In this document: positions 491 through 54,638 of the stretch, one piece after another
Layout of the letters: each line of letters begins with the position of its first letter
Position numbering within the stretch: position 1 is the first letter of the stretch
Source: Ephemerocybe angulata
Taxonomy: Eukaryota > Basidiomycota > Agaricomycetes > Agaricales > Psathyrellaceae
Assembly: GCA_013368325.1 (NCBI GenBank)
Contig: JAACJK010000168.1
Coordinates: forward strand, 248,001-312,000
Direction of reading: 5' to 3'
DNA: 64,000 nucleotides
Position numbers and translations under genes: made by a program
Notes under the pieces: generated by a model
The model's database searches: none
Told to the model about the DNA's origin: nothing
The model's input: the letters and a program-made list of their open reading frames with translations, nothing else

Positions 491-2662
491 CTAGCTAGTA
501 GCAGTATCAGAACCTTTGACTGCAGAAGCGGTCACAGGCTGAGCAGTCCTCGGCGGGAGCCCATCGTCATCCCTATACCTCGCGCCTCCCACAACCCCAG
601 CCATCGGTCCAGCAGTCAACGGATCATCGTCGGCCAGGAACCCAGAGTGAAACCCAACCCCGCCCGTCGAGCGTCCAGGTGCATTCCCAGTCCTCTGAGC
701 CGCAGACGACGCGGGAGGCCCACGCGCAGCCAGCGCACCGTCCGAGCCCTCCTCTTCCTCGACGACATCATACAGCCTCCGCCCCGTGCCCTGGCCCTCG
801 CGCCGCCCCCCAGTGATGTTCGCCATGGGCATTGTCTCGCCCCCAGGGAGGGCGGTGTACGTCGCCGCGGGGTCGTCGCTCCACAGCCCAAAGTGCTTGC
901 GGCAGTAGTAGATCGCGCCGGCGAAGTTTAGCAGGATGATGACGCCGACAACGCCCATGAGCCAGTTCTTCTTCGCCTTGCTGAGGTCGGAGAGCCACCC
1001 GGGCGGTGGGGGCGTTGTCGAGTCGTGCGGGAGGTTGTCTGTGGGCTTGCCGTGCAGCGTTGTGTGGGTCTCGGTCGGAGCGGCGTCGCCCTCGTGCGGC
1101 GGGATGACGGGGCGCGCGGGCGTGATGGAGCCGTTGCGGAAGGGCGGGAGGAGGTCGTCGTGTTTGTTGATCTCGTAGAGCTTGGCCTTGGAGGGGTCGA
1201 TGCACTCGCCCCAGAGCTGCATGTTCCAGCCTAGGAAGTAGCCCTCTTCGGATTCGAGCTCTTGGTCGGAGACGTGGATGCTCCAGTTGCCTACCGGACT
1301 TTCGCCCCTGTGAAGTTATTGGTGGTTTGTTTGGGGGATACTGGATGGGTAGTAGGGATCGTACCAATGCTTGAGAGACATGAACTCCCATCCGGGGAAC
1401 CCAGTCTTCGCGGTATCCCTCTCTCTCGGCAAGGCGAGTACACTGCGGATGCCATTAGGGCTCTCAAGGTACACGCCGACGTCTCCTCGCCTGGTATGTT
1501 TGATCCACACACGCACGGTGACGTGCTCGAGCTTCTCAAAGTTGTTCTGGGCAAGCATCTCCTTCGTGATCAAAATCGTACTCGACACTCCTCCATCATC
1601 AATGAAGTCGCCACCCTCAAACTCCTTATGCTCGTCCATCGTGCCGTTGCTAATTTGGATGGTGGGTGTCTCGATCCTCGCCTGCGGCTTCACGAGCTTC
1701 CAGTTCTTCGCAGCCTGGACGTAGGCCCACCCGTCAAGCACGCCGAACCCGTATTTGTAGCTGTAGTACTTGCCGCTCGCCATCTTCGACCAGTCGCTGT
1801 CGTGCGGGTTGATCTGGCGCGCGGTCTGGACGCAGAGGTGCTGGACGTCGCGCCAGGTGAGGTCCGGTCGGACGGAGAGTGCAAGTGCGATGACACCAGC
1901 TGCGTTGGGTGCAGCAGCCGATGTACCTCCGTGGTCCGTAGCGCACTTATTCTTGCCCCTGTCGGTAGTGACCTGCATGTAATTTGAACATGCACAAAGA
2001 ATGGAAATGAGGAAGACTACTTACGATGCTATTTTTGCTGCCAGAGCTGTACGCGACGACCATAACAGCAGCGCAAGGCTCCGAGTACTTGGGATGCAAA
2101 CCCTTGTAATCGACCGCGCCGACCGTTACGGAATAGATGCTGTTTGTGTACCCATCGAAATTGCACTGGTCACCGTGGTGTGCGCCGTTTCCGCTAGCGA
2201 ACACGAACACAGACCCCTTGCCTCCCCTCCCCTTGTTGATACCATTCAGCACGGCCTTCCTGATAATGTACGAAGGACCCTGCATCTTGGTGCCGTCATC
2301 TCGGGGGCCCCAGCTGCAGCTGTAGAGCTGAACGTCCTGGAAGCCGTAATTGAGGGCGATCGCCTCGTCCGCAGTGGTGATACGGCCTGCGAGGATACGG
2401 ATTCCTGAGACCTTGGATTCGTAGGCGATGCCAATACTACAGGCCTTGTTCTTGACTGCGGCGATCTGGCCTGCGCATCGCGTGCCGTGATGATCCCGCT
2501 CCTTCTTCGGTGTGGGGAGGGGTTCGTGGTCATTGAAGTCGTAGGAGTTCTTCGCATCCTGGGAGACTGTATAAGCAATGCAGTCATTCTATCAGGTGAA
2601 AGGTGACGTACGAAGTTGGCTGCCAAGTCTTCACTCGTATAGTCGAGGCCATCATCGATGAG
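491..2662 (-). pseudogene. KEX2: Kexin-type proprotein convertase, 3' part (separated from its 5' part by the KDZ transposon)
   Basis: This is the C-terminal two thirds of a Kex2-like, calcium-dependent subtilisin, which cleaves secreted precursors after dibasic sites in the late Golgi. Exons run 2662-2612, 2558-2025, 1972-1365 and 1307-491, with GT/AG introns of 46-66 nt. Visible motifs are the catalytic Asp block (LIDDGLDYTSED), the His block (RDHHGTRCAGQ), the oxyanion Asn block (FASGNG) and the catalytic Ser block (HGGTSAAAP). These are followed by a P-domain, a membrane helix (NWLMGVVGVIILLNFAGAIYY) near 880-960, and an acidic cytosolic tail. It has no start codon of its own; the coding region simply begins at the transposon junction. 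The 5' part lies at 21917-22518. Intact splice sites and catalytic residues suggest a recent break. Type and family are near certain; loss of function is inferred. Confidence 0.93.
2656..2662. repeat. Target-site duplication of the KDZ element, left copy
   Basis: CGATGAG here is repeated exactly at 21917-21923. It lies within kexin codons. Keeping one copy and deleting 2663-21916 joins the two kexin halves in a single frame (GVLSGL+IDDGLDY), which fixes the element ends precisely. Confidence 0.85.
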
Positions 2663-3650
2663 CACCAAATGCTGCCTCCTTTTTATATAAATCTCTGCCG
2701 CAACTGTCCTATCTGTTTGTATAATCTCCTATGCCATTAACCCCTCCCATATCACCCATACTGTAGCACGGGCCCTGCGCACCTGTGGATATTATATAAA
2801 ATATCCACTTCCTAATACGTGACCCAGGGCCCAGGCGCCCAGGGAGATTATATATAATTTGCGCTTCACATTCCTGCCGCCCACGTGCGGTTTACCGCCC
2901 GTTTATATAAAAACTGCTCTACCGCTCGGTTTAGAAACGACGCGCTTGGGTCCGGGCCCGCCTGCCGCGGCTCTACCGACTGACCGCTGGTTCCAAATTG
3001 GGGCCGAGCGGCCGCTGGGTTGGGCGGGTGCTACCGGGGGCGGGATACCCTCAGGCTGGTTCGATGCCATGCCCACAGGCTGTAATACACTACTGCTTGA
3101 CTAGGAGCGCGCACTCCCACTTGATACTATGCGATATCTACGCCGTGCCACCGTGCCACAATGAGCGAGCCCGCCGCTTGCCCGCCGCCGCCGCCAGCGC
3201 CGTGCGCTCGCTCTCACATGACATATACATTGCCCAATATATGATGGTACCCTCAGGGTATGTATATAAAATGTACAGAATCAGTCGTGGATGTGCTGCC
3301 GACGGTTATATAAAAGCGGGTGGCTGTAAAGCTCATATTGCTGCCATTATAGTACACTACCGAAGGTTATATAAAAGCAGACAGCCATTGTTCTGAATCA
3401 GCCATGTATTGACTACCGAGGGTTATATAAAAGAAGACGACTATTCTGGGAAATAGCTAGGTCATGACTACCGAGAGTTATATAAAAAGGGCGACCATTG
3501 TCTAAATCAGTTGCGCCTTGACTTGCTGCAGACAGTTATATAAAAAATACGGCCATAGAACTCGCCCCACGCCATTATATAAAATCCTCTACAAGCCGAC
3601 TTGGCCTACATTCATAGGGATCATCAGGGCTGTAGGGCATTATATAAAAG
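2663..3650. repeat. Left terminus and subterminal TTATATAAAA array of the KDZ element
   Basis: Motif copies begin near 2681, 2791, 2847, 2901, 3261, 3304, 3366, 3421, 3477, 3535, 3574 and 3639. From 3304 to 3535 they sit in a loose tandem array with a 53-62 base period. Units there resemble GACTACCGAGGGTTATATAAA with AAG or similar after it. The right end (20757-21916) has the same motif, in places with the same leading CTACACTAC...CGAGGGTT context. These look like transposase-binding subterminal repeats. They also resemble TATA boxes, but no gene starts next to most of them. The stretch 3651-3952 holds no gene. Confidence 0.8.
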
Positions 3651-3952
3651 CTTCGGCGGCGGATAGCTTGTAGATAGCTTGGTGGGATCAATGGTATACC
3701 CTATATCCGTAGCGCAGGAGCGGAAGAATGTACAACTTTGGAAGAGATCCTACCTAATCAGGCGAGACCCTGCACACCGCACGCTACGACCATTCGAGTG
3801 GCACTTGCCTCAGGAAAACCCTTTCAATAACTGGATATATAACGAGAGCTCGACGAAAGGTACACCGGGTTCATCAAGCATAAACGGGTCCAAATAAGGC
3901 CGTGCGTGGGAGCCAACTGCCAGCAGGGCGAAGGGGAGTTCGAACAAACCTC

Positions 3953-6900
3953 TCAACGTCCAACGAACACGTCGAGACACCCAGAGACAGCCTCTACAGC
4001 CTTCTTCCAAGAGACCTCTGGACTTTCTGCTTTCGCCCACCAACGCAAACCAGCAACAACCGCCAGCATCGATCCCGGCCCGGTACCTGGTTTCTTCAAG
4101 CATATCAAGCTATTCTTCGTCTCCGGAGTCATCTCAGTCGCCCATGGATCTCCTGCCCTCTCCTTTGGTTGCAGCTCCTTCCACCACTTGATCCAGCCGG
4201 ATGCGTATTCATTCACATCCTGAAGAGCAGGATCCTGGAGTTTCTTCTTCTTGAACCACGCCTGAATGATTGGAGGACGTTCCGACGACGCGGCGAATCG
4301 ACTGTTACCGGGCCCTCGTTTCACGGCCTTGATCTCGAAGCTGCACCACCGTTCTACGCACACCCTCCATTCTGGATCTTCAATATCAGTCAGAAGGTAA
4401 GTCTTGTACTCCTCTACCCACTCTGGGACTTCTTGGGTGGCCTTCCGCTGTCGCTTTGCCACGCCAGTGCTGACTGTGTCGCTTACAGAACGTTTTCGCC
4501 TCTCCTCGTTGGTTGTCTTGGGCGGTTCGTTAAGCGAGTCTTGTACGGCCTCATCGGAAGGCAATGGGTTATGAACCGGGGGGGTGTTCGGTCTGGATCC
4601 TGTGTCATCGGGCGATTGGGCTGGCGCAACCTGAGGCGGGTTCGGATCAGCTCGTCCCGCGTTGCTGGTGGAAGGACTTGGGGGAGACTGAAATGAGCCT
4701 GGAAGAGTGGAGTTCTGAACGGTAAGGAGCCCGCTCGGGTTGAGTGCACCGTTGTCATTGCTGAACTGCCTCATAGGATGTCTCCACCTCCCGACGCCGA
4801 AGTCATCCTCATTCCCACCACCAAATCCATCATCGTCCGAATGCAGAAGATCCATAAGAGATCCCCTAACCGTCGCCCCCTTGAAGTCATTCCAGTTATT
4901 CGAGCCCCCAGCATTTCCCATGAATTGTCCGTCAGGCTGAGGTTCCTGCTCACCGTGCCCAACGTAAACCCCGCGTTCGAGCTCACCCGGTAGGTATATG
5001 CTGCCATTTCCACCTCCTCCCAGGGACTGACCCGTGCCCATCCAGTTCGAGCCCATCCAAGTCGTGCCCATCCAGTTTCCGCCCTGCCTATCTCCGCTTA
5101 TCAGACTATCGCTGTTTAACTGTCCTCCCACGGCGTCACCCATCCAGTTACCACCACCACCTCCGTTCACGTATGCACCCCCACCCATCATGCCACCCCC
5201 GCCTCCGTACATGATGTCGTCTCCTGCGTTCACCATGTATCCGCCCCCGCCCATCAAGTCTCCTCCACCTTGGTTCATCACAAATCCGCCCCCGCCCATC
5301 AAGCCTCCTCCACTCCGGCCCATCATGCCACCCCCGCCTCTGTTCATCATGTCGTCTCCACCTTGGTTCATCACATATCCGCCCCCACCCATCGAGTCTC
5401 CTCTGCCTGGGTTCGTCATGAATCCGCTCCCGCCCATCAACTCTCCTCCGCCGGGGTTCGTCGCAGATCCGCCCCCGCCCATCAACTCTCCTCCGCCGGG
5501 GTTCGTCGCAGATCCGCCCCCGCCCATCAACTCTCCTCCGCTGGGGTTTGTAATGAGTCCGCCCCCGCCCATCAACTCTCCTCCGCCGGGGTTCGCCACA
5601 GATCCGATTCCGCCTGCCGCCATGTTGGCAGTGCTGGTATTGATGGACTGCCCACCTTCGACACCCGTGTTGCCGGTCGTCGTGTTGGTGTTCTGAGGGG
5701 GAATGAAGGAGGAATCGGGTATGGGTGCTGTTGGCCCGGCTTCATGGGTGTCAATGTTGATCGTCTCGTCAACGTTGATCACCTTGTCAACGGACGGCGT
5801 GGCGGGAGGTGGTACGGCTGCCTTGGGGGGAGAACCTTCCTTCCCCTTCTTCCCCTTCTTCCCCTTCTTGGTCTTGTCCGTTGCGTCACCCCCTTCCGTG
5901 GGCTTTTGGGCGTCGCCCTCACGATTCGCTTTGGACTTGTTACTCGTTTTCTTCCCTTTCTTTTTCGATTTCTCCAGCGCCTCTTGATTGACGACTTCTG
6001 CTTCCTCCTCCTGTCTAGAGAGATCGGTATTCACAAGATCAGGAGGGCGCATCTCATCAGCCATAGCCTGGAATACCGCGGCGTCGGCCTCAATACTAAG
6101 CTCCCCCTTGATGAGTGCCCGTTTAAGTTGTACTTCGAGTGCTGATCAAGCAATAATTAGTGTCGTTACTCTTAGGAATTGACTGAAGCTGCTCACGGTA
6201 GACATCCCTGAGGAACTTCGAGAACGGCACCATCAGAACATCGTGCACCATTGGTGAGTGCTCTGCAAGGTTCAATCCCGCCTGCGTTGTCCCGGAATGG
6301 AAAGTGGCAGTGCTGAAGGCGGCGTCAGGCTTACGTGGATCCGGCCCACCTCCGACTATTGTCCAACACCACCCTGTATTGGGCCCAAGGAAGTCAACGA
6401 CCGACTTAAGAACTTGCCCAAGAACATTCAAGAAGCTATTCGGATAGTTAATGGAGTGTTATGTTGCGAGCTACAAAGGACTCACCGTGCCATTTCTTGA
6501 GGTGAGCGCTCAATCTCTTCTTCGGCCCGCGCATCCTTCTTGAACAACTCTCGTATCTTCGACATATCCTCTGCGCGGCCGGCAAGCTCATCCTCGCGCA
6601 TTTGGCGAATCTCTTCGCGCACGTCCTCTTCCTCGTTGTCATATACTTCCTTCGTAATTTGATTGGTTAAGACTAGCATCCGCTTTCGGTCGACCACTTT
6701 GCTTTCGAGCGCCTTCTCAACACGAGGCTTGATACGTTCCTCGTAGTACTTCTTGGAATAGAGCTGGTACTCTGTGAGGGTGCGGACTGGGGCGCTCGCG
6801 AAGGTAAACTTGCACTGCACGTCCTTCTTTCTGTTTGGATGGTTATTGTAGAACCAGCCTCTGATAGACTGGGATTTATTAGCAAGATTCATGATTGGGA

Positions 6901-7434
6901 TTTGCGCCGTGGGCGTACCTTGGTGCGGGTCTTCCTCCAAGCGGTGTCGTCCATGGTATCTGGCTCGGGTGCTTCACCGCCATCCTCGTCATCGGAATCG
7001 GCGCTCTTCTTCTTGTCGTCGGCGCGCTTTTTCTTCTTCCCTGCGACGATGTCTTCAGCCAATTTCGCTTCGCGATCCCGCCGCTTCTCGTCAAGCTCCT
7101 CTTGGTAACAGGTGTACCATCCAAAATAATTCGCCGTGATCTTGCTGAGGAATAGATGAGGTGTTCCCAGTCTTTGGGCTTCGACGAACTCGGGCATGGC
7201 ATCCTTGAGCTTCACTCGCGCGCTGTTTGGGATCCATGACTTGGGCATACTGGTGTCGATTGAGCCGGGTGCCTGATAGGTTGGCAAGGTAAGGGTGCTG
7301 CGACATGGACCCGACTTTTTCTCATGAAAACCGGGACTTATGTTTATTCTCATCGAAATCTGCGCCATGTCCATCTTTGGCACGATTCCGATCCCGAGTC
7401 GATTTGGAAAGACTCTGGCTAGTAAGATAGTCAC
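3953..7434 (-). CDS. KDZ passenger gene: large protein with conserved N-terminal region and Gly/Met repeat region
   Basis: Proposed exons are 7434-6919, 6868-6486, 6435-6197 and 6141-3953, which sum to 1109 codons in one frame. Introns are 50, 50 and 55 nt with good GT/AG ends; one has a CTAAT-type branch site. A start at 7248 (MPKSWIPNSARV) is equally likely, and it would leave a roomier 280-base promoter shared with the divergent gene at 7531. The N-terminal third contains Trp-rich blocks (RGWFYNNHP, GWCWTIVGGGPDP) of a kind that recurs in agaric hypothetical proteins. A Lys-rich segment follows. Then comes a Gly/Met-rich tract built on repeats of about 15 residues (GGGELMGGGGSATNP, encoded at about 5400-5640), and finally a Trp-containing C-terminus. 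I cannot assign a function. Its place inside the element suggests a transposition accessory role. Confidence 0.72.
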
Positions 7435-7530
7435 CGGACATTAACCGGACCCACACATAAGCAGCTGTGCTTTCTGTTTGACGTCAGAGCCCACCCGCGA
7501 CCCGTTCCCCCCACTTTCTGACTTTCACTC

Positions 7531-8246
7531 ATGGCTGAGCTCGACGCCCCAATCACCCTCTCCCTCGCTCAACTCCTCGAAATGCTTCGGGGCGCCAATA
7601 TTAATGTTGGGGCGCCCTCGTCGAAGTGTACGTCTCCCATCGTCCCTGTTCAAGTTGGTATCTAATGATGTTGCTCAGCGTTGGCACCCACCACCGAGGT
7701 CGATGCCATGGCCAACGCCCTTTCGAACTCGCTCAAAATCAAAGAAGGTTAGTATCGGACATTTCATACTACGCTGTACGCTAACACAACACACCACGTC
7801 AGAGTCTGAGGATGCCACCACTCAGAACCAGTTTCCCAAAGGCCCCATTTCCGTTTTCAAGCCCCTTGGTGCCGACGAGAAAGCCCCTGATGTGCCCACC
7901 GTCGTTTTATCGGACGGTTCGACTTTTACCTGTGCCCATTGCGGCTCCCACAACACTGTCGTTGCCCCGGCCGAAACTTGGTACTGTATCACCTCTGGCC
8001 AGAGGGCAGGGGTGGTGCGCGGCTGGTATGTTCAACGTGCTCTCTCGATACGCATTGACGGTCACTAATGTTATTTCTCTATTTATTTGTAGGCATTTTG
8101 CTGCGCCTTTGGTCACCGGCGTGTCCAAGTCCATCTACTTCAAGTGCTTCTCGAAGGAAGATGCGATTAAGGCCTTTTACGAGGCTTGGGATGGGGGTCT
8201 AGTTGTTGCTCTGCGTGGGTTCATTGGTGTCAACCCTGTGGGCTGA
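7531..8246 (+). CDS. KDZ passenger gene: viroplasmin / RNase HI N-terminal-like domain protein, 180 aa
   Basis: Exons 7531-7627, 7679-7747, 7803-8025 and 8093-8246 give exactly 181 codons including the stop. The C-terminal 60 residues read WYCITSGQRAGVVRGW, then VTGVSKSIYFKCFS, then a helix EDAIKAFYEAW. That is the pattern of the small domain shared by caulimovirus viroplasmin and the N-terminus of eukaryotic RNase HI, which binds RNA/DNA hybrids or duplexes (family knowledge). A CAHCGSH motif precedes it. No RNase H catalytic domain follows, so this would be a binding protein, not a nuclease. It is transcribed divergently from the Gly/Met-repeat gene and shares its upstream region. Domain assignment is by pattern only. 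Confidence 0.72.
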
Positions 8247-8871
8247 TTGGCGTCTCAGCTCTGCTCAGTGCGCCTTGGCCCTCGTACAGATCCGCTTAGT
8301 TACACTTATTCGCCGTTCTCGAGTCAAGTAGTCCCCTTTTTTGCCAGACCCTAGTACGTTGATTGTATATTTCCGGCTTCCCGACACCATATACCATGTG
8401 CCTACGTGCCAATACCATTTTTGCAGTTACTCGCCTTCCGATGCTCCACAAGCCTATGTATATATTGGGTGCTATATCGGTAATGACTCGCGCATACGTA
8501 CACTAAGCGAGGACTCGCTGAAAGAGGAACTCCCGCTGCTCCAAGAGATCGGTGAATTGCTCATCTCCGACCATGGCGTACGTATCAAGGTCCTCTAAGC
8601 AATGTAGAGTACTGCGAATCCTGTCTATCTCTTTCTGAACTTCCCCTAGCTTTGAGCCAACACCACATAGCTGAAGTATCTCGCGGTGAATCTGGCACGC
8701 CGTCTCGAGAAATGAGTTGAATGCGGCGAGGTGCTTCTCCAAGAGATCTCTAGCTGCTTTCCACTCCTCCGGTGGCTGATTGACTCCAGAACCCTCCACC
8801 ATGAATTTGTGACAGATAGTCTGAAGGAAACTGAGCTGCCCGCCGTTTCCCATGTGTCCATCGACGCGACG

Positions 8872-8876
8872 AGAGA
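8872..8876. repeat. Target-site duplication of the Copia element (AGAGA), left copy
   Basis: AGAGA lies directly before the 5' LTR and again directly after the 3' LTR (15074-15078). Five bases is the usual length for Ty1/Copia integration. Confidence 0.93.
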
Positions 8877-9236
8877 TGTTGAACATATGGCATATAGCAC
8901 GCAGACAGGCTGAGACATATGATGTCATTGACTTGAAATTTCCCTCTATATTCAGGCTATTTTACCAGCCTATGACATCATGTCCTTGACGTGCACTGAA
9001 GTGCTTCTAATCACAGACTCGTGCATTATATACTCTCGTCAACCGTTACTTACTTATTAGTATAAGTCACACTTCTGGTCACACTCTCAGACATGTATAA
9101 ATACCCTCTAGTTAGACCTCAATCTAAAATCGACTTCACCAGTCTCTCTCAGTAGTCACTTAGCTCGCCTCTTTAGTTAGTCTCTTGGTAAGTTCAGTAG
9201 CCTTAGCCACTGCGTTGTATTAGTGCTACTTCTATA
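8877..9236 (+). repeat. Copia 5' LTR
   Basis: This is a 360-bp direct repeat matching 14714-15073 base for base by eye. A TATAAATA box lies near 9094-9101, which places the transcription start and R region in the last 120 bases. The likely primer-binding region begins just downstream, around AGTTATGAGCCCCGAG. Confidence 0.95.
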
Positions 9237-9265
9237 AGTTATGAGCCCCGAGAGGCCAAGGGTAT

Positions 9266-9552
9266 GCGCTGTAATGGCTGCTCCCAACTCTCGGTTTGCG
9301 CTGTAATGGCTGCATACCCAATGGCTCTGACTTACCCTTGAGACTGTGCGTCAGAATGTTCAGCGCTGTAATGGCTGCGTTCATTTTGATTGCTATCGAT
9401 AATAATCAGCGCTGTAATGGCTGCGTTTGTTATTGATTTTGATCTGCGCTGTGGTGGCTGCGATCAATATGGTGATTACTAAGCTTTTCACCCAGAGAAT
9501 TGCTTAATAAGCAATTTTCACTCTTGGGGAAAAGAAGCGCTGTTTATGGCTG
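9266..9552 (+). repeat. Six repeats of GCGCTGTAATGGCTGC in the Copia leader
   Basis: Copies start at 9266, 9298, 9363, 9409, 9446 (GTGGTGG variant) and 9537 (TTTATGG variant), with 32-91 base spacing. They fill the untranslated leader between the primer-binding region and the polyprotein start at 9604. A near-palindrome AATTGCTTAATAAGCAATT lies between the last two. The leader is where packaging and dimerisation signals reside in retroelements, so a role in RNA packaging or translation is plausible but inferred. Confidence 0.85.
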
Positions 9553-9603
9553 CATCTTTAATTGGAGATCAATTGCTGATTTGATTCATTTCAGATCTTC
9601 AAT

Positions 9604-12600: not shown

Positions 12601-14670
12601 TCACCCCCTATACCTAAAAGGGATAATGGCCCCAATCATGACGATGATCAAGGCCCGCATCCGCCGCAACCTCTGCCTCCGGTGAATGAGGAACCTCAAC
12701 AGCGTGGTAGACAACGTGCTCCACGAGGTGATCCTCCGGCGCCTACTAGAGCGTCAAGCAGACTGCGGAAAGTTCCAACCAAGCCTGGCAACTCATACGG
12801 GGAGCGGAACCCTGTTGAATCTGAGAAAATTGGTCAAAAGGAGTGGAAAAAACTTGTAGGCGACACCGAGACTAGGCCATCCGGTAGTTCGCAACAGAAA
12901 GGAAAGGAAAAGGTTCCCGGACCAATTCCTGCACCAACACCACCTCCTCCAGAAGTTGAAGCATCGTCTTCTGATGAAAGTGACTCTGATGAATCATCAT
13001 CTGACCAAGCAGATGCCATGTGGAATGACTACGGTACCTATATTGCAAAATTGGTCCGTGAAGGGGGAGTAGAGTTTATGGAACATTTGCTGTCAAAGGC
13101 AATTCCTGCAGACTTACCTCAAAAAGCACCACGCGAGTGGACATTCCGCGATATCATGCGCTTACCAAAGCCTGAAAGGGAAGAATGGCTTAAGGCCTGC
13201 AATGAGGAGATAGAGGCTCTCTTCAAACGCGGAGTTCTTTCGCTGACTGATCTACCTGCTGGCCGAAAGGCTATAGCAAACAGATGGGTTTTCGACATCA
13301 AATCAGATGGTCGGAAACGTGCCCGATTAGTTGCCAAAGGTTTCTCACAAGTTGAGGGCATAGACTTCAACGAGATCTTCTCACCCGTCGTACGATATGA
13401 ATCTGTTCGTCTCCTTTTGGCACTAGCTGCATTGGAGGGCTGGGATATTACAGCCGTCGACGTGAAAACTGCCTTTCTATATGGCAAGTTAGAAGAGGAG
13501 ATTTACATGCTCCAACCTGAAGGCTTCATTATCAAAGGGCAGGCGCGTAAAGTCTATCGACTACATCGTGCCATATACGGTCTAAAGCAAGCCTCCAACG
13601 CATGGTACAAGGAGCTTGTAGGGTCAATGAAGCTCTTAGGGTTTCAGCGACTATCGACCGACACTGGGATTTTCATGTTCCAGGACTCTCACGGTGAATT
13701 TGTCATCGTGGTCGCTTATGTCGACGATCTTCTATTCATGGGACCAAAACCCAACCTCGTTGTGTCCAAGAAGAATCTCTTTATGGACAAATGGGAATGT
13801 AGGGACTTAGGCGAACCATCTGAATTCCTCCGGATGCGCATTCAACGCAAGGATGGCAAGATCTTACTCGATCAAACCAACTATCTCAAAGCTGTCCTTG
13901 AGCGCTTCGGAATGATGGACTGCCGAGTTGCTCCCACACCCATGGTTGAAGGCTATCGCCCTCTACCCAACGAAGGTCCCGTTGATCCACAACTGCGACA
14001 CCGCTTCCAGTCTGTGATCGGATCATTGCTGTACCTCATGCTAGGCACACGCCCTGATATTGCATATGCTGTTACCAAGCTGTCGCAATTTGCAGCAAAT
14101 CCGACACAAGAGCATCTCAACCGAGCGCTCTATATCTGCAAATACCTCCGAGGCACCATGGACTATTCATTGGTTCTTGATGGACGTTCCGGCAAGGGAC
14201 TTATTGCCTATTCAGATTCTGATCACGCCGCTGATCTCATCAAGCGTCGATCTGTGACTGGATATGTGGTGAAGATGGCTAACGCCGCTGTCAGTTGGAC
14301 GTCACACGCTCAGAAGACTGTTGCTCTCTCCTCAACTGAAGCAGAATACATGGCACTGTCAGATTGCAGTCGTCAGGTTATGTGGATGAAGCATATGTTT
14401 AAAGAGCTTAGAATGACCGTTGGCAAAGTTCCAATCTGTTCCGACAACAATGGAGCTATCTTCATTGGTTCCAACCCCATTCAGGAAAGGCGCATCAAAC
14501 ACATCGATGTTCGCTATCATTATATCCGTGAATGTGTGGAAGATGGCAACGTGGAAATACTTAGAGTTGACACCTCTGAGAACACAGCCGATACTATGAC
14601 AAAGCCACTTGGTCGCGTCAAGTTTGTCGAGTTCAGGGAACAACTAGGACTAGAGTTTTACTCACCTTAG
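9604..14670 (+). CDS. Copia Gag-Pol polyprotein, 1688 aa
   Basis: A single open frame encodes all functions in Copia order. First is a gag region of the UBN2/DUF4219 type (about residues 1-200). The aspartic protease follows, with LDSGAS near residue 521. Next are a GAG-pre-integrase segment (about 640-720) and the integrase core (HSDL near 731, VDDYSG, QQNGRAERFNRT near 825). Reverse transcriptase of the RVT_2 type spans about 1210-1460 with YVDDLL near 1371, and RNase H carries YSDSDHAAD near 1536. I see no CCHC zinc knuckle in gag; a His-rich run near residue 280 sits roughly where one might be expected. No stops or shifts are present. Gag must be made by proteolysis or partial translation, as in other one-frame Copia elements. 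Confidence 0.96.
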   Translation: MSNTLTTLVPVFDGTNYAMWSDVMWAYLELQGLSLHVDGTNTKPTENSSAEEREAQAKWEMQDKQARGAIILRLTPSIRSAVIPKKTSKEVWDLLKETYGTPGITVIYADFKKLVSFKFSGNDPRPELAKFQEILDRLTANKVSFDNFIQTMMLINSLPSKYDHLNAIILQSPRDKLNVKDIGDMVIAEFERTQNVHTANKMTAIKRKNNDPSFNQQRQQKHQNKPADNSSGNASNQESKNNSRGNAGGKKKKEKKKNQGSGQGNSRQHHHHTHEAHDLSHMASSAVLLGQHVVNLAPHVPQPTAASVVTIGSQGSVVRKAPVNLPAKAFTPATGDKITFAVTHSVYPSVAQAQKICEALDVSKTARNLKVLEEIPLADRLSSPPPSKRARTESPPPTPIKSTIVDDDDAVSLGDEDLTDQDAEGSLWGGDEDAAMQLDGINTGYNDDANSYVPSSHLTKHFADVLADPQSLRLDMLDFSDDVYMDACIALKSIASRIDSLNPAINCAQCENPGLQLWILDSGASIHVTAAISDFHDYRILDNGPKIRTAAKNSILQMQGVGSVFVEHFGYNPTTGKPAPVRSRISPVFHIPNLDTRLLSMGELLQRPGSYVKGNKDAIGIYTASHHQLVICRPQFPDDNIYWFRTKIVQQNKLADTVSTLYSIDYETMHKRFGHPSKEVLERARGSTEKFPEISIPKKIPICRGCAEGKMPSKSYPISETRAEQPFEKIHSDLKSFPIESYHRYTWYVSFVDDYSGHAWITLLRKKDDTLQAVRNFLAMVENTYGSSVKQWMSDGGGEYKSHEFDNLLKEKGIKILQSVPHVPQQNGRAERFNRTIMDKAQAMRLDACIPQSWWEFAVLHAVHLYNRTPMKRLKWKTPYELVHKKKPDVSHFRVFGCGAYVYLPPDVRVNKLAPKSEMMIFLGYPEGMKGYLFMRQPNNVLFKSTTATFDETYFPKCKDVVPRGTTREGEPSGSQDQNNIPPEEDGDNDDNDFLPRPPSPPIPKRDNGPNHDDDQGPHPPQPLPPVNEEPQQRGRQRAPRGDPPAPTRASSRLRKVPTKPGNSYGERNPVESEKIGQKEWKKLVGDTETRPSGSSQQKGKEKVPGPIPAPTPPPPEVEASSSDESDSDESSSDQADAMWNDYGTYIAKLVREGGVEFMEHLLSKAIPADLPQKAPREWTFRDIMRLPKPEREEWLKACNEEIEALFKRGVLSLTDLPAGRKAIANRWVFDIKSDGRKRARLVAKGFSQVEGIDFNEIFSPVVRYESVRLLLALAALEGWDITAVDVKTAFLYGKLEEEIYMLQPEGFIIKGQARKVYRLHRAIYGLKQASNAWYKELVGSMKLLGFQRLSTDTGIFMFQDSHGEFVIVVAYVDDLLFMGPKPNLVVSKKNLFMDKWECRDLGEPSEFLRMRIQRKDGKILLDQTNYLKAVLERFGMMDCRVAPTPMVEGYRPLPNEGPVDPQLRHRFQSVIGSLLYLMLGTRPDIAYAVTKLSQFAANPTQEHLNRALYICKYLRGTMDYSLVLDGRSGKGLIAYSDSDHAADLIKRRSVTGYVVKMANAAVSWTSHAQKTVALSSTEAEYMALSDCSRQVMWMKHMFKELRMTVGKVPICSDNNGAIFIGSNPIQERRIKHIDVRYHYIRECVEDGNVEILRVDTSENTADTMTKPLGRVKFVEFREQLGLEFYSP

Positions 14671-14713
14671 GTCCGCTCAGCGATCTCTGACAGATGCACT
14701 TAGCGAGGGGGAG

Positions 14714-15073
14714 TGTTGAACATATGGCATATAGCACGCAGACAGGCTGAGACATATGATGTCATTGACTTGAAATTTCCCTCTATATTCAGGCTATTTT
14801 ACCAGCCTATGACATCATGTCCTTGACGTGCACTGAAGTGCTTCTAATCACAGACTCGTGCATTATATACTCTCGTCAACCGTTACTTACTTATTAGTAT
14901 AAGTCACACTTCTGGTCACACTCTCAGACATGTATAAATACCCTCTAGTTAGACCTCAATCTAAAATCGACTTCACCAGTCTCTCTCAGTAGTCACTTAG
15001 CTCGCCTCTTTAGTTAGTCTCTTGGTAAGTTCAGTAGCCTTAGCCACTGCGTTGTATTAGTGCTACTTCTATA
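14714..15073 (+). repeat. Copia 3' LTR
   Basis: Second copy of the 360-bp LTR. It follows a GAGGGGGAG polypurine tract ending at 14713 and is followed by the duplicated AGAGA (15074-15078) and the resumed passenger-gene exon. Confidence 0.95.
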
Positions 15074-15832
15074 AGAGAATCCATGCAGCCGTTGGAGTGC
15101 TGCCTTGGTTGGATCCATCTGTTTGATCTTTGAAGTCGACGGACTGAGTACCATGTTCCTGCTGTTAGTCGCAATCTAATAGATATATGAGGAAATAGAC
15201 AATACCTTTCAGAACTTTTGTCTTTGCTAGATTCCTTCGAAGGATCGGCTTCCTTCAGCTTTCGATACGCCCGTTTCCTCTTCCGACTGATGGTCGCCTT
15301 ATTTCTACGAGCGAAGTATCGATTATTTATCTATACAACTGGTAAATGACAATCAATACACACTTTTCATAGTATTTCTGACTGTTTCGACATGCTGCAG
15401 CCTTCTTGTCTTCTTCAGTGATATGCTTCCGCGGACGTGCCATGGAAGTCGTGGTTAACCCAGCTTTATAGTCGAAATCAAAGTGACTTCATGTGTCATT
15501 TGTGCACTTTGTCTCATTTTTACTCCCAAACACCCTACACATTGTATAATGTATACCAGTTGAAACCTATTGATTCCCTGACCCCAAATATATACTTTAT
15601 GTGTTAATACGAGCCTAAGAACGCCCATAATCGAGGAAAGAAAGAATCTGGCCTCTGCCATTCCTCGTCCAATGACTATATTAGGCTCGATATGCCCACG
15701 CCACGATGCCTTTGCCAATCCGGCCCAAGATACAGAAACCTTCGATAATTTCTGGGACTTCTTCTTGCAGTGTTGGCGCACTAACCACCTTGAGCTTGGG
15801 GCGTGGATAAGGGATACATTGCTGTCATAACT

Positions 15833-18800
15833 CTAATGTAATTCTAGTAGCGTAAATACTGTGTTCGGGGGGACAAGCTTGTCAATAATGCTCTCTCGCC
15901 TCGTCTGCGCATGGTCAGCCATTTGTCCTCGTATCTCTGCCTGTCGGTATGCATAGGCGGCCTTGCCTCGTTGAAGGATTCTCCGGTCCTCGCGTTCAAT
16001 CCTGTCCATAATGGACTCTTCGGGGTCTGCTGCTGCCGCCGCCTCTGCCTCTATCTCCGCCCTCACATCCTCAGCCCGCTTAAGCCATTGTGCCTGCTCC
16101 CATCGGAAAAAGTCTACTGTCCGCCGCATTTCTTCTCCAAGGAGGTGACATTCCTCCTGCCACCGGTGTGCCCGGGCTCGGGTTTTACACCACTCGATTC
16201 TCAGAACTGTGGATTTTATAAAATCATTAGGATCGCACCGTACCGCATATTGAAGTCCATTTTAGACTTACCCGATTCACTCGCATCGTCAATGCTCTCA
16301 CCTATTTCCCCCGTCCGCCAGATCCAGGACACCGCTCTTTTCCCATGTCCGAGGACCTTCTCTCTGTCCTTGGCCTTTGACTTCGTCCCATATACCCCCG
16401 CCTGCTCATCGTGCTCGCTAGTCATTCCCCGAATATCGTCCTTCTCCAATGGGAGGAAGAGAGCCTCCCAATCCTTGTTCTGCAGGTGCGCTCCCAATAC
16501 AACAAGGCACTTACGCACATGGTTGTAATGCGCAGCATCCCCACGGATCTTTTTCTCCACCTCTTGGAGTAGCCCATGGCTTCGCGTAATTGCATGGGTG
16601 CCGTGTGTGAATATCTTTTTGGAATGATACATCTGGGAACGTAGAATGAGGTGAGCGCGTAGATCGGTTAGTGCAGAGTCCGCCTGGGCGAGCCGGAACC
16701 GGAACTCATATTGAACGAGTCGTCGTTGGACTGGAATGGTCGTGATGATAGCTGATGGGAGGTATAATGGCCAGGTTTGTACAGGTTCGTCAGATCCTTC
16801 TCCTTGCTCGATCTGGGACTTCCGGTGTGGAGCGACACTGGGCATGTATAAGTCCTGAAGCGAAGACCAAGCGGAGAATTTCCGTCTGATGAGATTTCCG
16901 CGCTCAAGTACACGAGCACGCTGCAGGTCAGTAGAATGCGGACCAAGGTCTTTGGCATCAATATCAAGGAGACGCCTATGATTAAACCGTTGTCAGAATC
17001 ACCGGAAAGACAAGGAACAGGTGACTTACTGAGAATCTTCGATCTCGAGGCCCTGGAAGATGAACATGCTTGGGGTGATGTCGTCATGAACAGCGACATC
17101 TTCTCCCTTTCCCAGGGCTACCTTGTCCTCCTCAGCAAGGGCAAGTCGAACAGCGCCGTAGGATAGTTCTGGAGAATACATGTGAGGATTGATATAGCCG
17201 TAATTGGACACGACGTACGAGATGTGTTTGTAGATTGGTAAGGATTCTGGCATCGTGGATTCGCCTCCCACCGCTGGACCATGCCTGTCCACGCCGTGGT
17301 CCATTTGGTTGGAAGGGCGGAGTCAAATTCCCGGAATGCAAGGACTTGGGCCGCCCGTTGAGTGATAGCCTCAACGCCCTTTTCATGCAAAGCGTCCGCT
17401 GGGAGGGGCTGTAAGCACGCCAGTATCAACTCTGAAGGAAAAACCTTACCAAGACGTGTCACTTTTACCCAATTGTGATCTCCAAAGCAGTCATCGAGAG
17501 TGTCCCGCCGCGATCCAGGACCCATTTCTCGAGTACTATACGCGAGGTCGTTTGATGCTGCCCATCCGCGCTCGGGCGCTTCTCCATCGGTCCGGCCTAC
17601 GCCCGGTGTGTAATTGAAGGAGTATTTCACCCGACAGGCATCAACGTGAGCCGGCAGATGAAACTTGGGGACCAAGAACTTGATTTCAGGCGGGGAGGCG
17701 GATGTCATGACATTGGGATCGTACTCCTGGCATCGTTCCATCAGCTTGATGTGCCATTGGCATGCGATATCGTACGAGACAATGAGCTTCCGGAGGAGAT
17801 CGTGCTGAATGGTCTCTAAGAAAAACCGGTCCATATTGATGTACCTGAGCATCCACAGCGTCAAACGTTGAGCTCCAGAAAAGTAAAGAATGCAATACGT
17901 ACCGTTCTCCCTTTTGAAGGTCGCCCATTCCCGTCGGGCGTTTCATATCGTGGCGGCTACACTGGGCGATTCCCATACCGCTCGCTGCTAAGCCCTTTCC
18001 ACCTCGGAGGCTCGAGGACTTGATTGCGTCGTGGTCGTTGCAGGTACTCTTATCTTGAATGATCTTCTCCGTATACTTCAGCAGGTACTCGCGAAAAGGA
18101 CTATCCTCCAGGATATAGCAGAACCCTTGGATCATTCCGGGATCGAGGAGGTCGTTTGAGACGTTTTTCCGTTTCAGACGGAAGTTGGCATCGAGGGCGA
18201 CGAACAGCCAGTACAGGAATCTGATCCATTATTAGAATAGCACTATACAGGACTGAACAGGCGGCTTACGATTCTTTCTGCCGGATCTCCATCCAATTCG
18301 CTGGAAGGTTAATGTTCGGGTGGGGACATGCTGGGCATATCACAGCACACGCCCCTGACGCAGTCGCTCTCCATCCCGCAGGGTCGTATCCCCGAGCAAA
18401 GCGCTTCATCAACCGGGTCTGTCTCCAAACCCGGAGCATGCGAAGCACCGCACGGTAGCGGTCCTGCCGCATCGTCAGCATTATTTCATAGCTTGTTCAA
18501 ATCACGAAAGCGGCAACTTACGGGGAAGGATTCTGTACCAGTATTCCCTGTCAATCGGTCCATAGCGTTCGTATATTCTTGGCATGAGATCTTCGCCGTG
18601 AAGGTAAGCATTTGGAGGAGTTTTAGAGCATTGAACGTGGCCGCTGTTCTGGGCCTCTTCACAGTGGCTGGAAAGAGACGAGCTCTCAGGAGCTGGACGA
18701 CGTGGTCGGGAGATCCTGGGCAGTTGCAAAAGTCGAGACCGATCTCATGGATTCCATTTGGAGCTACAACAACAAAGGAATCGTTGAATGCCTGCTGAGG

Positions 18801-19555
18801 ATGGGGGCACCTGTTGCTGCCAATGTGACAGAGCTGTACGCGTAGACCAAGGTGCTTGAGGGCGACGCGAGAGAAATGTGTTCCAGTCCAGACCTCTGGT
18901 CGATCGAAGGGGCGAAACCGATGTTGCTTCACAATACAGGCCTTGCAAACAAAGGAAGCGGTAGGCGCACAGTCCGTACACCGGTACATTTTACCCGAGA
19001 CAATGGGGTTACTACAGCCTTCGTAGGAGCACTGTGAGCTGTCTACGCAAAAGCCTGGACCTTCGAGACGTAGGAGCTCAGCCACAATATCGTCAATTCG
19101 ATCCATGAAGGCCAATAGAGGGAAGTCCTAGAGGTGTATCAGTTGGCGCCGGTTGTTCATCCCGAACAAATTGGGCGTACCTTCTTCTTTCTCCGCTTCT
19201 TCTTCCCCGTTCCATTTTCTCCTCCGTCTGACCCACTATCATCGTCAATCTGCTCCTTATCCGTATCATCGCTCTCCAACTCCTCCGACTCGCCGTCTTG
19301 AGGTCCAGGTGAGTGACTTTCGAGCATCGAGATGTCGGGTAGTTGAACTTGAGGCGGATCTCTTGGCATCTCAGAAGATCCTTCTTGAGGATGGAGATGC
19401 GAAGTGGGGAGAGCGATAGAGGTCTGCGTTGCTGTGAGCTTCCCACTGCGGTCGTCGAAGACTGTGAGGCTGTGCTGGTTGGCAGCTAAGGCGGTGCGAG
19501 GCAGCTTGGGTGGAAGATCGCGCATTTGGAACGCATCTTTTCTCTTCGGAGCCAT
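15833..19555 (-). CDS. KDZ (Kyakuja-Dileera-Zisupton) transposase with CxC2-like cysteine cluster, 1111 aa
   Basis: Exons 19555-19181, 19127-18522, 18463-18270, 18220-17903, 17844-17219, 17168-17030, 16975-16272 and 16206-15833 total exactly 1112 codons. The N-terminus is polar and basic (KKKRRKKK). The second exon carries the CxC2 cluster (CSNPIVSGKMYRCTDC, FVCKACIVKQH, then FCNCPGSPDH). The catalytic region shows LDANFRLKRK, YDIACQWH and GRTDGEAPERGWA, which fit the D/D/E positions of the RNase H-fold transposase. A long helical C-terminus follows. Length, motif order and domain content match agaric KDZ proteins. There are no internal stops, so the gene looks functional. It presumably cuts at the element ends 2663 and 21916. 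The TATATAAA arrays there are natural candidates for its binding sites, though that is inference. Confidence 0.93.
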
Positions 19556-19758
19556 GCTCTAGGGAGGGGGTGTTGTTGGAGGACGTCGTGGAAGTGGGTG
19601 GTTAAGAGTGGGAAATCGTGGTTGGACGGCGGCAGTTCACCGGCAACCATCACGGTCTCCGCTGATTTCGGAACAGCAACTCCATGCTCAGATCTTAGAC
19701 GCCGCTTCGGAATCGGGGTGTATATCTGCTGTCACATATATACACAATAATGGCATAG

Positions 19759-20539
19759 CTACGTAGTGGGATACATGGAGAATCGAGTAGAATATCGAGA
19801 CTGATCGTGATACGACAATCCGCCAAATGATGCCGCCCGTCGTCGGAGTGTGGGCTTGGGGTTGTCTGAACCCGAGTCCAACTTCCGGGGACGCCTCTTG
19901 GTGCAAAGACGATGAAACTCAATACGTACAAGGAGAACAGCCTTTAAATAGATGGTCATCAGTATGGGTAGGATAATACTAGCATTAACGTCAACTGACC
20001 AGGCCGTTCCTCCGCGTCTGTGGGTCTGCCTTCAAAAGAGGATCCCAGGCGAAGTATTCCGTTTGAACATCGGCAGCCCGGTCATATCGCCAATTGATGT
20101 CATGAATGATTTCCTAGGAGTACAAGGTAAACTCGTTAGCATTTCGAATAGGTGCACAGATGATAAGAGCCTTGCTACTCACGGCGGAAATCTTCAGGAG
20201 GTGTCGGAAGAGGTCCAGAGCGTCGCCTTTCCAATTCTTAATGGGCCACTGTCGGAACCATTGAACGAGGGCTTCATAGAAGAACTCGACAATGCAGTTG
20301 TTGAACCGGTCGGCAATGATGCACAGAGCCCCGCAGTCCTTGATAAACTCTTGCTGCTCTGGAGTTCCATACCATGTACGCCGGGGCGTCCAGCGAAATT
20401 CGTCCGACTAGGCGTGTGATGAGCTCGGTGGTTCACGTTACTTAGTAGGCGATGCTTGGGCAATGCTTACCGAAACAATCGCTGCGATCTTCCAGAGCCA
20501 CGCGTTTAGTATATCGTTGCAGAGAAAATGAGGTAGCAT
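19759..20539 (-). CDS. KDZ passenger gene: 196-aa protein of unknown function
   Basis: Exons 20539-20471, 20407-20183, 20113-20000 and 19941-19759 give exactly 197 codons including the stop, with GT/AG introns of 58-69 nt. The product starts MLPHFLCNDILNAWLWKIAA. It has an aromatic-rich middle (GALCIIADRFNNCIVEFFYE, WFRQWPIKNWKGDALDLFRHL) and a basic C-terminus (TKRRPRK, TLRRRAASF). I recognise no family. It lies 203 bases upstream of the transposase on the same strand. Its consistent exon arithmetic argues that it is real. Confidence 0.65.
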
Positions 20540-20756
20540 TGTGAAGCGTGAGGAGTGGAAGTGGAGATGGGAGGGAAAGGAAGTGTGAGGGCCAACCGTG
20601 ATTGGGGGAGGGAAAGAAAGGATGGACGTGGTAAGCTCGTGAAAGTCCGCTTTCCTGCATATAAGGTCAACCAGGAATGGAATGTGCTTGATGGCACGGG
20701 TCACTATGCAAGCATTTTACAAAATCGTCAGCAGCAAGCGCCAGCTTGAAGACATC

Positions 20757-21916
20757 ATTTTATATAACGGCGGTAGGTGTCATGGTGGGTGTCAGTGAGC
20801 AGTGATAGACTTCTAAGGTTGATTGTCGTGTGATGTGGTAAGTGAGAGTAGGCTTCAATGTCAGGCTGCAGCCTGAATCGGGGAAGGTATGGCTATGAAA
20901 TCCTCCCAACGTGGGGGGTAGTAAAGAGACGATGTGCGCTGCCTGAGAGGGAGGTGCCATCGTAAGGGGTGTGCCACCGTATATAAAATTAACTACAGCT
21001 AAATTGTGCCATGTGGGACGCTCCGGAAGCATGTTTATCGCAATTATATATAATCACGTATTGGCTACACTACATATTTCAGGGTTTTATATAATGCCCG
21101 ACAGACCTTGTCTTGTATTTGCATCCCGTGTGAGACGTCGGCCCACAATTATATATAATTCACTGCAGTCTCTACACTACACTCCCCGAGGGTTTTGTAT
21201 AATCCTTGACTCACGCCGATCTCGCTCCCACCCTCGTGGGTGCGCCCTGGGGAAATGCGATGGCGCGCCATTGTGACATTGTCGCCGGGTCCATTAGCTG
21301 AGGGCGATATGTACCCCGAGAAGCGCTGGTCCATCCCGTTCACCAGTTGCATCCAGGTAAACACTAGGCAGGTACCTGGTATTTTTGGGAAGTGGAGGCG
21401 GGGCGTCGCGCGTCAAAAGAAGCGCCGAGAACACCGCCATCAAGTGGAGCATGTGCCTCGTTGGTTTGGCCAGGCGCTCGCGCAAATTATATAAAATCTG
21501 CTCTATGACAGGTCCATAACCAATTGGTGGCCTACCTATCACAATTATATATAACACCCTACAAGAACGCGCGGTACCGTGGCACGGCGGGAACACACGC
21601 CGCTTCATCACGTGGAGTTCGCCTCGACAGGCGCCCACGCAAATTATATAAAAGTCGACGCGGGAACAATCCGTAATCGATGTGTGGGGAACTGGGGCTC
21701 TTTATATATAATCTTCTGCAGCGCGCGGTGTACCTTGTGTGTTTATAAAATTCTGCTGAAGATCAATACCTGTTGTTTTTATATAATCTGCGCTTATCAA
21801 GCGCTTACTCCTGCCTGAATTCTTGCCTGGCATATGTACGTGACCTGGCGAGGTTTTTATAAACGTATAGCCCTTTTAGTAGCACGCTTTATATAAAAAT
21901 ATGGCGACCACACCTG
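20757..21916. repeat. Right terminus and subterminal TATATAA array of the KDZ element
   Basis: Motifs of the TTATATAAAA / TTATATATAAT type begin near 20758, 20979, 21043, 21085, 21148, 21485, 21543, 21642, 21701, 21778 and 21888, with weaker ones (GTATAATCC, TTTATAAAATT) between. The extreme end, read on the minus strand, starts CAGGTGTGGTCGCCATA followed by TTTTTATATAAA, mirroring the left end. No gene is seen here; the preceding 20540-20756 is the upstream region of the 196-aa gene. Confidence 0.8.
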
Positions 21917-22518
21917 CGATGAGGCCTGAGAGGACCCCTTTACCCGTAATCCCCTCCGCCCAAAGCCCAGTCACATTCATCATATTCTCAGGGTACTCGT
22001 CGTTTGCAAGATGCCACTGCCTAGGGAAATACGGATCCTCGATGTTAAACCGCTTCACGATGGGCCATGGCGGCCGACTTTGGCGGGGGCTTTATCGGGG
22101 GAGGCGCGCGTTTCGCTCTGAGCTCCAGCTCCTGGCGCTCGAGGAAGGCTATCGAGTTGTAGAGGCGTTTCGAGAATTCGACGTCCTGCCCTGATCGTGC
22201 TCCCAAGCTGTCCCCCGAGAGCGCCGCGACTCGTAGCGAGTGGTATGCATCGAGCACGGGGTCGAAGCCCCTCACCTCTAGGTCCCCACTGAGCTTCGGT
22301 GTCCGCACGACCCAGTGGTCGTCGAGCTCTCCGAGGGGCTCTACAACCTCGACCCCAAGCGTTTTGGCTATGTCGTGTATTGAAGCGCTCGGCTGGACAT
22401 CGTGCTCGACGATGTAGTAGTTGTGGGTGTCGTATTCCCTCGCTGCTGGTCGCCGCGGGGTGTTTTGAGCGCGCACGACTAACGCAGCCAGCGCAATCGG
22501 CTTCCAGAGGAGATGCAT
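21917..22518 (-). pseudogene. KEX2: Kexin-type proprotein convertase, 5' part (signal peptide, prodomain, start of catalytic domain)
   Basis: The reading starts MHLLWKPIALAALVVRAQ, a clear signal peptide. It continues with a prodomain (REYDTHNYYIVEHD, DDHWVVRTPKLSG) and enters the catalytic domain at VKRFNIEDPYFPRQWHL and NVTGLWAEGITGKGV. KR before FNIED is the likely autoprocessing site. The frame changes by one base near 22062-22064 (GGG on the plus strand), between PPPKSAAMA and VKRFNIED. No plausible intron bridges it, and dropping one base there makes the whole rejoined gene exactly 868 codons. The coding sequence stops at the transposon junction, after ...GVLSGLI. This half alone cannot make an active protease. 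Confidence 0.9.
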
Positions 22519-23234: not shown

Positions 23235-23813
23235 AAACTGCATGAAGTTGAACGCTGCATTTCCATCGTGCAGATTAGATTAGATTAGATGTCAGTGGTG
23301 ATGGGATCAGATCCCGGTTCAAGCTCAATTTGAAATTCAATTTGCAACGAAGCTCACTTTGTCTCCTCCCATGTGCTAAAACTGTCGAAAGCTAGGGCTA
23401 TAATGCAGGTATATGGATGGGCGGGCAAGCCTCCGGGTCACTGGCTGGAGTGGACTAAGCGCTGTCTTGACGATAAGCTCTGTGTTGGGTGTCTTGGACG
23501 TGGCTTGCTTAGGGTGACGCCGGGATCCGTCATCCTGGAGGTCGCGGAGCAAGGTTACATCGTTCATTGTGGTCTTCTGTCGAATCGATACATTCGAGCT
23601 TCCGGAGGCTCCAGATCATCAAAAGCGAGGCAAGTCCTCACTTCCTCAGGCGAACCCAACTCCAGCGATATGCCATCATCTCCCAGATACCTCGAAGCCG
23701 AGGGGACTCTGTGTTGTGTGTATAGGTCTTCCAGGGTAAGTCCAAACCGTCGTAGTTATGTGTCGTTGCTCACCGAATTTCTACCCTAACCTAACGCCTA
23801 ACCATCCTCATCG
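23235..23813 (+). repeat. Dispersed repeat, right copy (partner at 80-482)
   Basis: It starts with CAAACTGCATGAAGTTGA and ends with CCCTAACCTAACGCC, as does the left copy. An insertion near its beginning carries ATTAGATTAGAT...GATGGGATCA, a signature also found near 36780 and 45155. It contains no recognisable protein. The copies are clearly diverged, so this is an old repeat. Confidence 0.6.
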
Positions 23814-41631: not shown

Positions 41632-42312
41632 CCTTGAGTAATTTAACCAACTATGTGGAAATCCGATTGTTTCGAGCTTGTTGAGGAGGTAATTCAGCAC
41701 TGAAGCGCCCGGCCCGGAACCGAGAAGCGCTGGCCTAGTCGGCCGCCGGTGGTCCCACGGGTCCATAATAGTCACCGTCCCGGTTGTGCTGTGAGCTTCG
41801 ATCATTCCGCCTCTCTTTCGTACACTCATCTCAGCTTGCCGGCACTCCTTCCTCACTCCTGTTGAGCTACCTAGGACTGGGCTCTACGACATTGCACACT
41901 GCCAGCCAATGGAAAACTACCAGCCCGCCAAGGAACCGTCATATGGATACCTTTCCTAACGGACTCGTTACCCTTTCAACGATTTTCACTTGAGGCCTAC
42001 ACGAAACGATACACGTGGCGAGGCTGAAGCAGTCGATATTTGAATATGCTCTGGGAGATTAGACATATCGCAGTATCCCAGAGCCACATGAAGCCCTCAG
42101 CGGGCCAGTCAGGTACCCCTGGTATGCACCAAGCCTCGCTAAAGTTCTTGACGCGCGTCGCAGCTTGGTCGCAGCTGAATTTCTGAACTTAGCAGTGGCA
42201 AGCTACGAAGTTAGCAGAGTGATCATTAGTATGCCGCTACAGCATGTGGTTCTTACGGTTTTGGATACCTTGGTGAGCTTTCTATCCGCATTACACTTGG
42301 GTTAAGAATAGT
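41632..42312. other. Intergenic region; nothing recognised
   Basis: No coding, repeat or RNA feature could be supported between the anchored protein gene and the duplicated segment. Confidence 0.4.
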
Positions 42313-54604: not shown

Positions 54605-54638
54605 TCATCGAGGACGATGAGTTCTAGGAGGGGGGTAA

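Follow-up and report, generated by a model that had tools for sequence, protein, structure and literature searches.

A KDZ transposon, probably Kyakuja-type, with passenger genes and a nested copia retrotransposon in a kexin-like gene of Ephemerocybe angulata

We analysed a 64-kb stretch of the Ephemerocybe angulata genome (the window; C218:248001-312000), in which a minus-strand kexin-like gene is divided by an insert of 19,254 bp (positions 2663-21916) consisting of a KDZ transposon and a copia retrotransposon nested within it. On that strand the pieces of the kexin gene are colinear with each other, as an earlier reading made from the letters alone (the sequence-only reading) had held. Genome searches were made over the 58.7-Mb assembly; other loci are named by their contig handles. 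The features of the locus are as follows.

491..2662, minus strand: kexin-like gene, 3′ part, with the rest of exon 1 and exons 2-4 (Peptidase_S8, E 1.6e-21; 1ot5, E 7.5e-70; 91.6% identical to C151)
2656..2662, no strand: target-site duplication CGATGAG, left copy (exact match)
2663..21916, minus strand: KDZ element, Kyakuja-type by its ends, 19,254 bp with the nested copia and 13,052 bp without it (domains, ends, duplication)
2663..3842, no strand: left terminal region, with a CA-N15-TTTTTATATAAA end and 13 plus-strand TATATAA sites (motif counts)
3953..7374, minus strand: passenger gene g4, about 1,090 codons open in four exons, family not recognised (relatives beside KDZ transposases)
7445..8246, plus strand: passenger gene g3, with a single intron at 8027-8092 and an uncertain start codon (open frame)
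8503..8876, minus strand: probable 3′ part of passenger gene g2, beyond the copia (no Pfam match above cut-off)
8877..15073, plus strand: Ty1/copia retrotransposon, 6,197 bp, inside the KDZ element (pair of long terminal repeats, target-site duplication, Pfam)
15074..15443, minus strand: passenger gene g2, 5′ part, beginning MARPRKH (weak matches in three relatives, E 7e-6 to 9e-5)
15836..19127, minus strand: KDZ transposase gene, CxC2 followed by the KDZ domain (Pfam; tiled by open frames, splicing partly worked out)
20761..21916, no strand: right terminal region, with 11 plus-strand TATATAA sites and an inverted CA-N15-TTTTTATATAAA end (motif counts)
21917..21923, no strand: target-site duplication CGATGAG, right copy (exact match)
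21917..22518, minus strand: kexin-like gene, 5′ part, with the start codon, the propeptide and the beginning of the catalytic domain up to the catalytic Asp codon (91.8% identical to C151)
22064..22070, minus strand: 7-bp insertion causing a frameshift, a possible excision footprint (absent from C151, C114a and C114b)

The kexin-like gene starts at 22518 and ends near 491, with homology to C151 ceasing at 494. Its assignment is based on the match to PF00082 (E 1.6e-21) and on the solved kexin chains, which ranked at the top of the structure comparison, also when exon 1 of C151 was used. The insertion site lies in exon 1, within codons for Leu-Ile-Asp; this Asp is the first residue of a DDG motif aligning with the solved kexin, and we take it to be the catalytic aspartate. 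A direct repeat, 75% identical between its copies (128-486 and 23469-23800), flanks the gene, the first copy stopping just short of the 3′ end; it may be a trace of how this kexin copy arrived.

The motif CGATGAG is present exactly on both sides of the insert, at 2656-2662 and 21917-21923. When 500 bp at one breakpoint were compared with 500 bp at the other, it was the sole 7-bp match with CA..TG ends; one 6-bp pair occurred elsewhere and no 8-bp match was found. By simple arithmetic, chance would produce 7 matching bp at two given breakpoints in one case out of 16,384. For an empty-site test the two kexin flanks, each alone, were aligned by BLAST with each of the remaining four kexin-like loci. 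For C151 and both C114 copies the left match stops at 2662, the right match starts at 21917 and the two overlap in the target by exactly 7 bp, so these three uninterrupted relatives hold the target site once; in C120 the flank alignments were too weak and diverged to reach the site. As the flanks were aligned separately, the overlap is an independent proof of the event, and the insertion of a KDZ element with a 7-bp duplication into a kexin-like gene is confirmed. The ends and the duplication given by the sequence-only reading are thus exact, and the genome search for an empty kexin allele that it had proposed returned empty sites in the C151 and the two C114 paralogues, with no allele of the window locus among them.

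It had also been claimed that deleting the insert restores the reading frame. The local join is indeed correct across the breakpoint, but the extra 7 bp at 22064-22070 shift the frame independently, and removal of the element alone would therefore leave no open kexin frame: the first frame terminates with KSAAMAHREAV. Among the four aligned kexin genes these 7 bp are private to the window copy, the placement of the gap sliding by a few bases.

We assigned 30 nonsynonymous and 42 synonymous changes to the branch of the interrupted copy, a ratio of nonsynonymous to synonymous substitution rates (dN/dS) of 0.21, and 13 and 32 changes, respectively, to the C151 branch (dN/dS 0.12), while 22 changes could not be placed on either. 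These values cover 664 codons, with exon 4 only in part and gapped codons dropped, and use an outgroup, C114a, that is only ∼75% identical. As dN/dS is low and no stop codon is present in its exon pieces, we conclude that selection acted on the interrupted copy during most of its history.

The transposase of the insert was recognised by the sequence-only reading as a KDZ transposase, and the domain matches leave this identity firm: PF18758 was matched in two exons (E 3.8e-39 and 9.4e-19, both above cut-off) and a CxC2 cysteine cluster adjoins the transposase domain (E 1.6e-36). The motif DGEAPE is shared by all three relatives compared and YDI.CQ by two of the three; the LDANFRL pattern was seen in the window transposase only. 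A protein set contained 799 relatives of the transposase, the best 120 including sequences from Tricholoma, Phlegmacium, Candolleomyces, Mycena, Pleurotus and Arthromyces, all of them agaricomycetes.

Passenger genes, likewise expected from the letters, are present (g4, g3 and g2). In g4 two 50-bp introns are clear and the third is uncertain: an intron of 55 bp at 6196 gives 1,088 codons, while one of 28 bp gives 1,097 codons and is implausibly short. At E 1e-3 no g4 homologue was found among the best 7,989 and 7,994 candidates scored in two protein-set queries, the second of them built with the improbable 28-bp third intron; such a result does not show absence. Tandem repeats of 45 bp occur in g4 at 5151-5603 and encode a Gly-rich GGGELMGGG stretch. 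For g3 we saw a weak match to the Cauli_VI / RNase H1 N-terminal domain (E 0.059), which is below cut-off and is not claimed. Gene g2 is split by the copia, starting at 15443 and likely resuming at 8876.

The copia retrotransposon has long terminal repeats (LTRs) at 8877-9236 and 14714-15073 that are identical over 360 bp, a 5-bp duplication AGAGA (8872-8876 and 15074-15078) and an internal frame of 1,696 aa in which Pfam found gag, integrase and reverse transcriptase domains in that order. It entered after the KDZ element had formed, within g2; given the identical LTRs, the insertion is probably young. The KDZ transposon proper is therefore not the 19-kb element it was first taken for, since its length is 13,052 bp and the remainder of the insert consists of the nested copia (6,197 bp) and one copy of its 5-bp duplication.

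The element has terminal sequences CACCAAATGC and ACCACACCTG and no long terminal inverted repeats; the sole motif common to both ends is CA-N15-TTTTTATATAAA, inverted at the right end. The ends sit within arrays of a short repeat. On the plus strand TATATAA occurs 13 times in 2663-3950 and 11 times in 20500-21916, with none elsewhere in the element and one outside it, so that 24 of the 25 sites in the window fall in the two terminal regions. Minus-strand sites number 11 and 10 in the same regions, 2 elsewhere in the element and 2 outside (21 of 25 terminal); as TATATAA is almost a palindrome, both counts refer mostly to the same places. The arrays are candidate binding sites of the transposase. 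Arrays of repeats near the ends, together with short target duplications, are a feature of hAT elements such as Ac/Ds, and a footprint-like 7-bp insertion lies near the window element as well; the transposase family is different. A limited literature search met no subterminal arrays in KDZ elements, which does not show them to be unpublished.

Kyakuja elements, as described in the available part of Kojima (2025; PMC12730594), have 7-bp target-site duplications, CA..TG ends and no terminal inverted repeats (TIRs). The window element agrees with that part of the description in its KDZ transposase, 7-bp duplication, 5′-CA..TG-3′ ends, lack of inverted repeats and passenger genes, and departs from it in the TATATAA arrays, in CA-N15-TTTTTATATAAA at both ends and in the nested copia. 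Unlike the Kyakuja elements with a TET gene, it gave no Pfam match to a TET/JBP dioxygenase in the main frames scanned, where short or spliced exons could escape detection. Zisupton elements differ in having an 8-bp duplication and TIRs, while here the duplication is 7 bp and there is no long TIR.

Complete KDZ elements of ∼9-11 kb caught in a gene, KDZ1-KDZ3, are described for Cryptococcus neoformans in the accessible text of PMC12810828. They share with our case the complete element within a gene, target duplications and a CxC-type cysteine domain; they have, according to the same text, inverted repeats of 139-241 bp, duplications of 8 bp (KDZ1) or 4-8 bp and CxC1, in contrast to the window element with its CxC2 domain, 7-bp duplication and lack of long inverted repeats. 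In Pleurotus ostreatus a transposon-like insertion was reported in MSH4 (PMC7641404). There too, in the portion of that report at hand, a mobile fragment breaks a mushroom gene with a copia nearby, and the intact KDZ genes of that genome have CxC2 in front of them; that fragment carries CxC5/CxC6 with no KDZ transposase within the expected distance. The statement of the sequence-only reading that the ends of complete KDZ elements can rarely be fixed was overstated, as ends and duplications are in print (PMC12730594 and PMC12810828, in the parts available). The type of element is already known, and we regard the window element as a clear representative of it, not as a new kind. What the locus does provide is a complete passenger-bearing KDZ element whose exact ends, duplication and gene content are defined, with ends situated in short-repeat arrays.

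The KDZ domain had at least 170 matches in the genome (175 candidates, 150 scored), counted by exon and not by element; with the element itself left out, transposase matches down to E 1e-33 were 41-63% identical. A 163-aa piece of g4 had six other matches, 26-35% identical. In five of these six loci a KDZ transposase match lies at a distance of 5-8 kb from the g4 relative, and for the sixth (C152:1007271) there was no KDZ match nearby among the matches listed. The gene set g4-g3-g2-transposase was observed in all three of the g4/KDZ loci examined (out of five), with weak matches for g2. No element end was reached within the pieces examined of C13, C11 and C114, which carry near-identical KDZ copies. 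Two of three distant relatives seem to have other repeats near both ends: on C16 the 9-mer TTGTGGACA occurs nine times (three near one end, four near the other, two inside), and on C152 ATATCCCGC occurs five times (two and three near the respective ends). These are raw counts taken with no shuffled control; if they hold, they would point to transposases changing in step with their binding sites.

The extra 7 bp in the kexin gene lie 147 bp from the KDZ insertion point and might be an excision footprint. An element duplicating about 7 bp, KDZ or other, would have left through a hAT-like hairpin, and the present element would have landed 147 bp off, perhaps by a local hop. We consider this explanation unlikely, with an appreciable chance nonetheless of being right. 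The net gain is exactly 7 bp, a palindrome GCCATGGC stands at the join, and a 7-bp duplication that loses no more than 2 or 3 nt on either side and gains 4 P-nucleotides reproduces the lesion. If up to 3 nt may be lost, the model yields 343 products, ∼0.14% of the possible 7-bp insertions in a stretch of 20 bp; under a limit of 2 nt the lesion is one of 167 products. Ac/Ds footprints in Candida contain short deletions or palindromic insertions, and palindromic P-nucleotides are known in them, according to the available part of PMC5873905. On the other hand, the model was written after this single case had been seen, a model with 0 or 1 nt lost per side cannot yield the lesion, and a plain duplication of 7 bp would match it but for two mismatches. 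The model counted 7-bp duplications only and no other lengths, and a hairpin step for KDZ was not met in a limited literature search. The more specific proposal, that KDZ elements excise through hairpins in the manner of hAT and RAG and make local hops, the lesion having been left by a KDZ element that once sat in this gene, would be doubtful to a still greater degree. The lesion beside the element is a testable hint on KDZ excision; if the proposal were true, it would be the first hint of the excision mode in the KDZ superfamily.

One could also suppose that the whole 19 kb represents a KDZ element with its cargo and that the kexin gene, intact in other respects, was inactivated by this element alone. 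The flanks are in fact nearly 92% identical to the uninterrupted copy and in frame across the breakpoint. Yet the copia, which splits g2, is bounded by LTRs and a 5-bp duplication of its own, and the kexin copy has the second frameshifting insertion, absent from three relatives, which makes this explanation very improbable.

With a 213-aa query piece we found five kexin-like loci in the genome: the window gene, C151 (92% identical to it), two on C114 (85% each) and C120 (73%). The C114 pair lies 10 kb apart (C114:432113-444432), C114b being seemingly shortened. The frames of C120 end in an acidic tail, a feature of KEX2-like proteins. That C151 is the allele of the other nucleus of a dikaryon, with its 91.6-91.8% identity over the kexin gene, is hardly credible, as its synteny with C218 ends beyond the gene and an upstream stretch (72% identical to that of the window gene; no further match of ≥100 bp at E 1e-10 between 94 kb of C218 and 70 kb of C151), the right flank at 25700-31700 has no second full copy in the genome and only five partial matches, each of at most ∼120 bp, and the three loci of the RPB2 family are the number expected in a haploid assembly. 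The allele was thus ruled out, and by these sequence comparisons C151 is a paralogue. The sequence-only reading had offered a second gene copy or the other nucleus as reasons why the loss is tolerated; further gene copies are the likely answer, and no dikaryon allele was seen. With four other kexin-like loci, a second nucleus is not required. The interrupted gene is probably tolerated since these genes remain, including the KEX2-like C120, and membership in a kexin family would be a simple reason for it.

Taken together, we hold it very probable that a Kyakuja-type KDZ transposon inserted into a member of a kexin family with a 7-bp duplication, that a copia later entered g2 and that other kexin genes make the loss tolerable. 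The transposon, with at least three passenger genes and a transposase, entered exon 1 of the kexin gene and duplicated 7 bp, probably by a cut-and-paste insertion, as suggested by the transposase type. The presumed recognition sites of the transposase are the CA-N15-TTTTTATATAAA ends and the adjoining TATATAA arrays. The copia then landed in g2, and the host would bear the loss through the remaining kexin-like genes, C120 among them.

Several observations weigh against this interpretation. The element is named as Kyakuja-type from its ends and not from a transposase tree. Other copies with the same ends and 7-bp duplications, for which the sequence-only reading had proposed a search, did not appear: in a DNA search of the genome that skipped very common words, the left 1,288 bp and the right 1,417 bp matched only themselves, and the pattern CA-N15-TTTTTATATAAA occurs at the two element ends and 2 other places, compared with 4 for a reversed control. 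The transposase (15836-19127) is inverted with respect to g4 relative to all three relatives, so gene order has changed within the layout. On C202 no subterminal 9-mer passed the filter as common to both ends. Ends could not be fixed on C16, with no seven-bp CA..TG pairs, or on C152, with two such pairs against 0.7 estimated by chance. Finally, there is one TAG inside the matched stretch of C120; the frames place it directly in front of the exon that is open, where an intron probably ends.

Outside the kexin locus, the window contains a complete Ty3-type LTR retrotransposon with a chromodomain (48406-55188), which has identical 550-bp LTRs (TG..CA), the duplication ATGTC and long gag and pol frames. 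A segment is duplicated at 32201-33068 and 42309-43259 with ∼91-93% identity. A reverse-transcriptase fragment is located on the minus strand at 61508-62359, adjoining an open frame of 516 aa (59980-61527).

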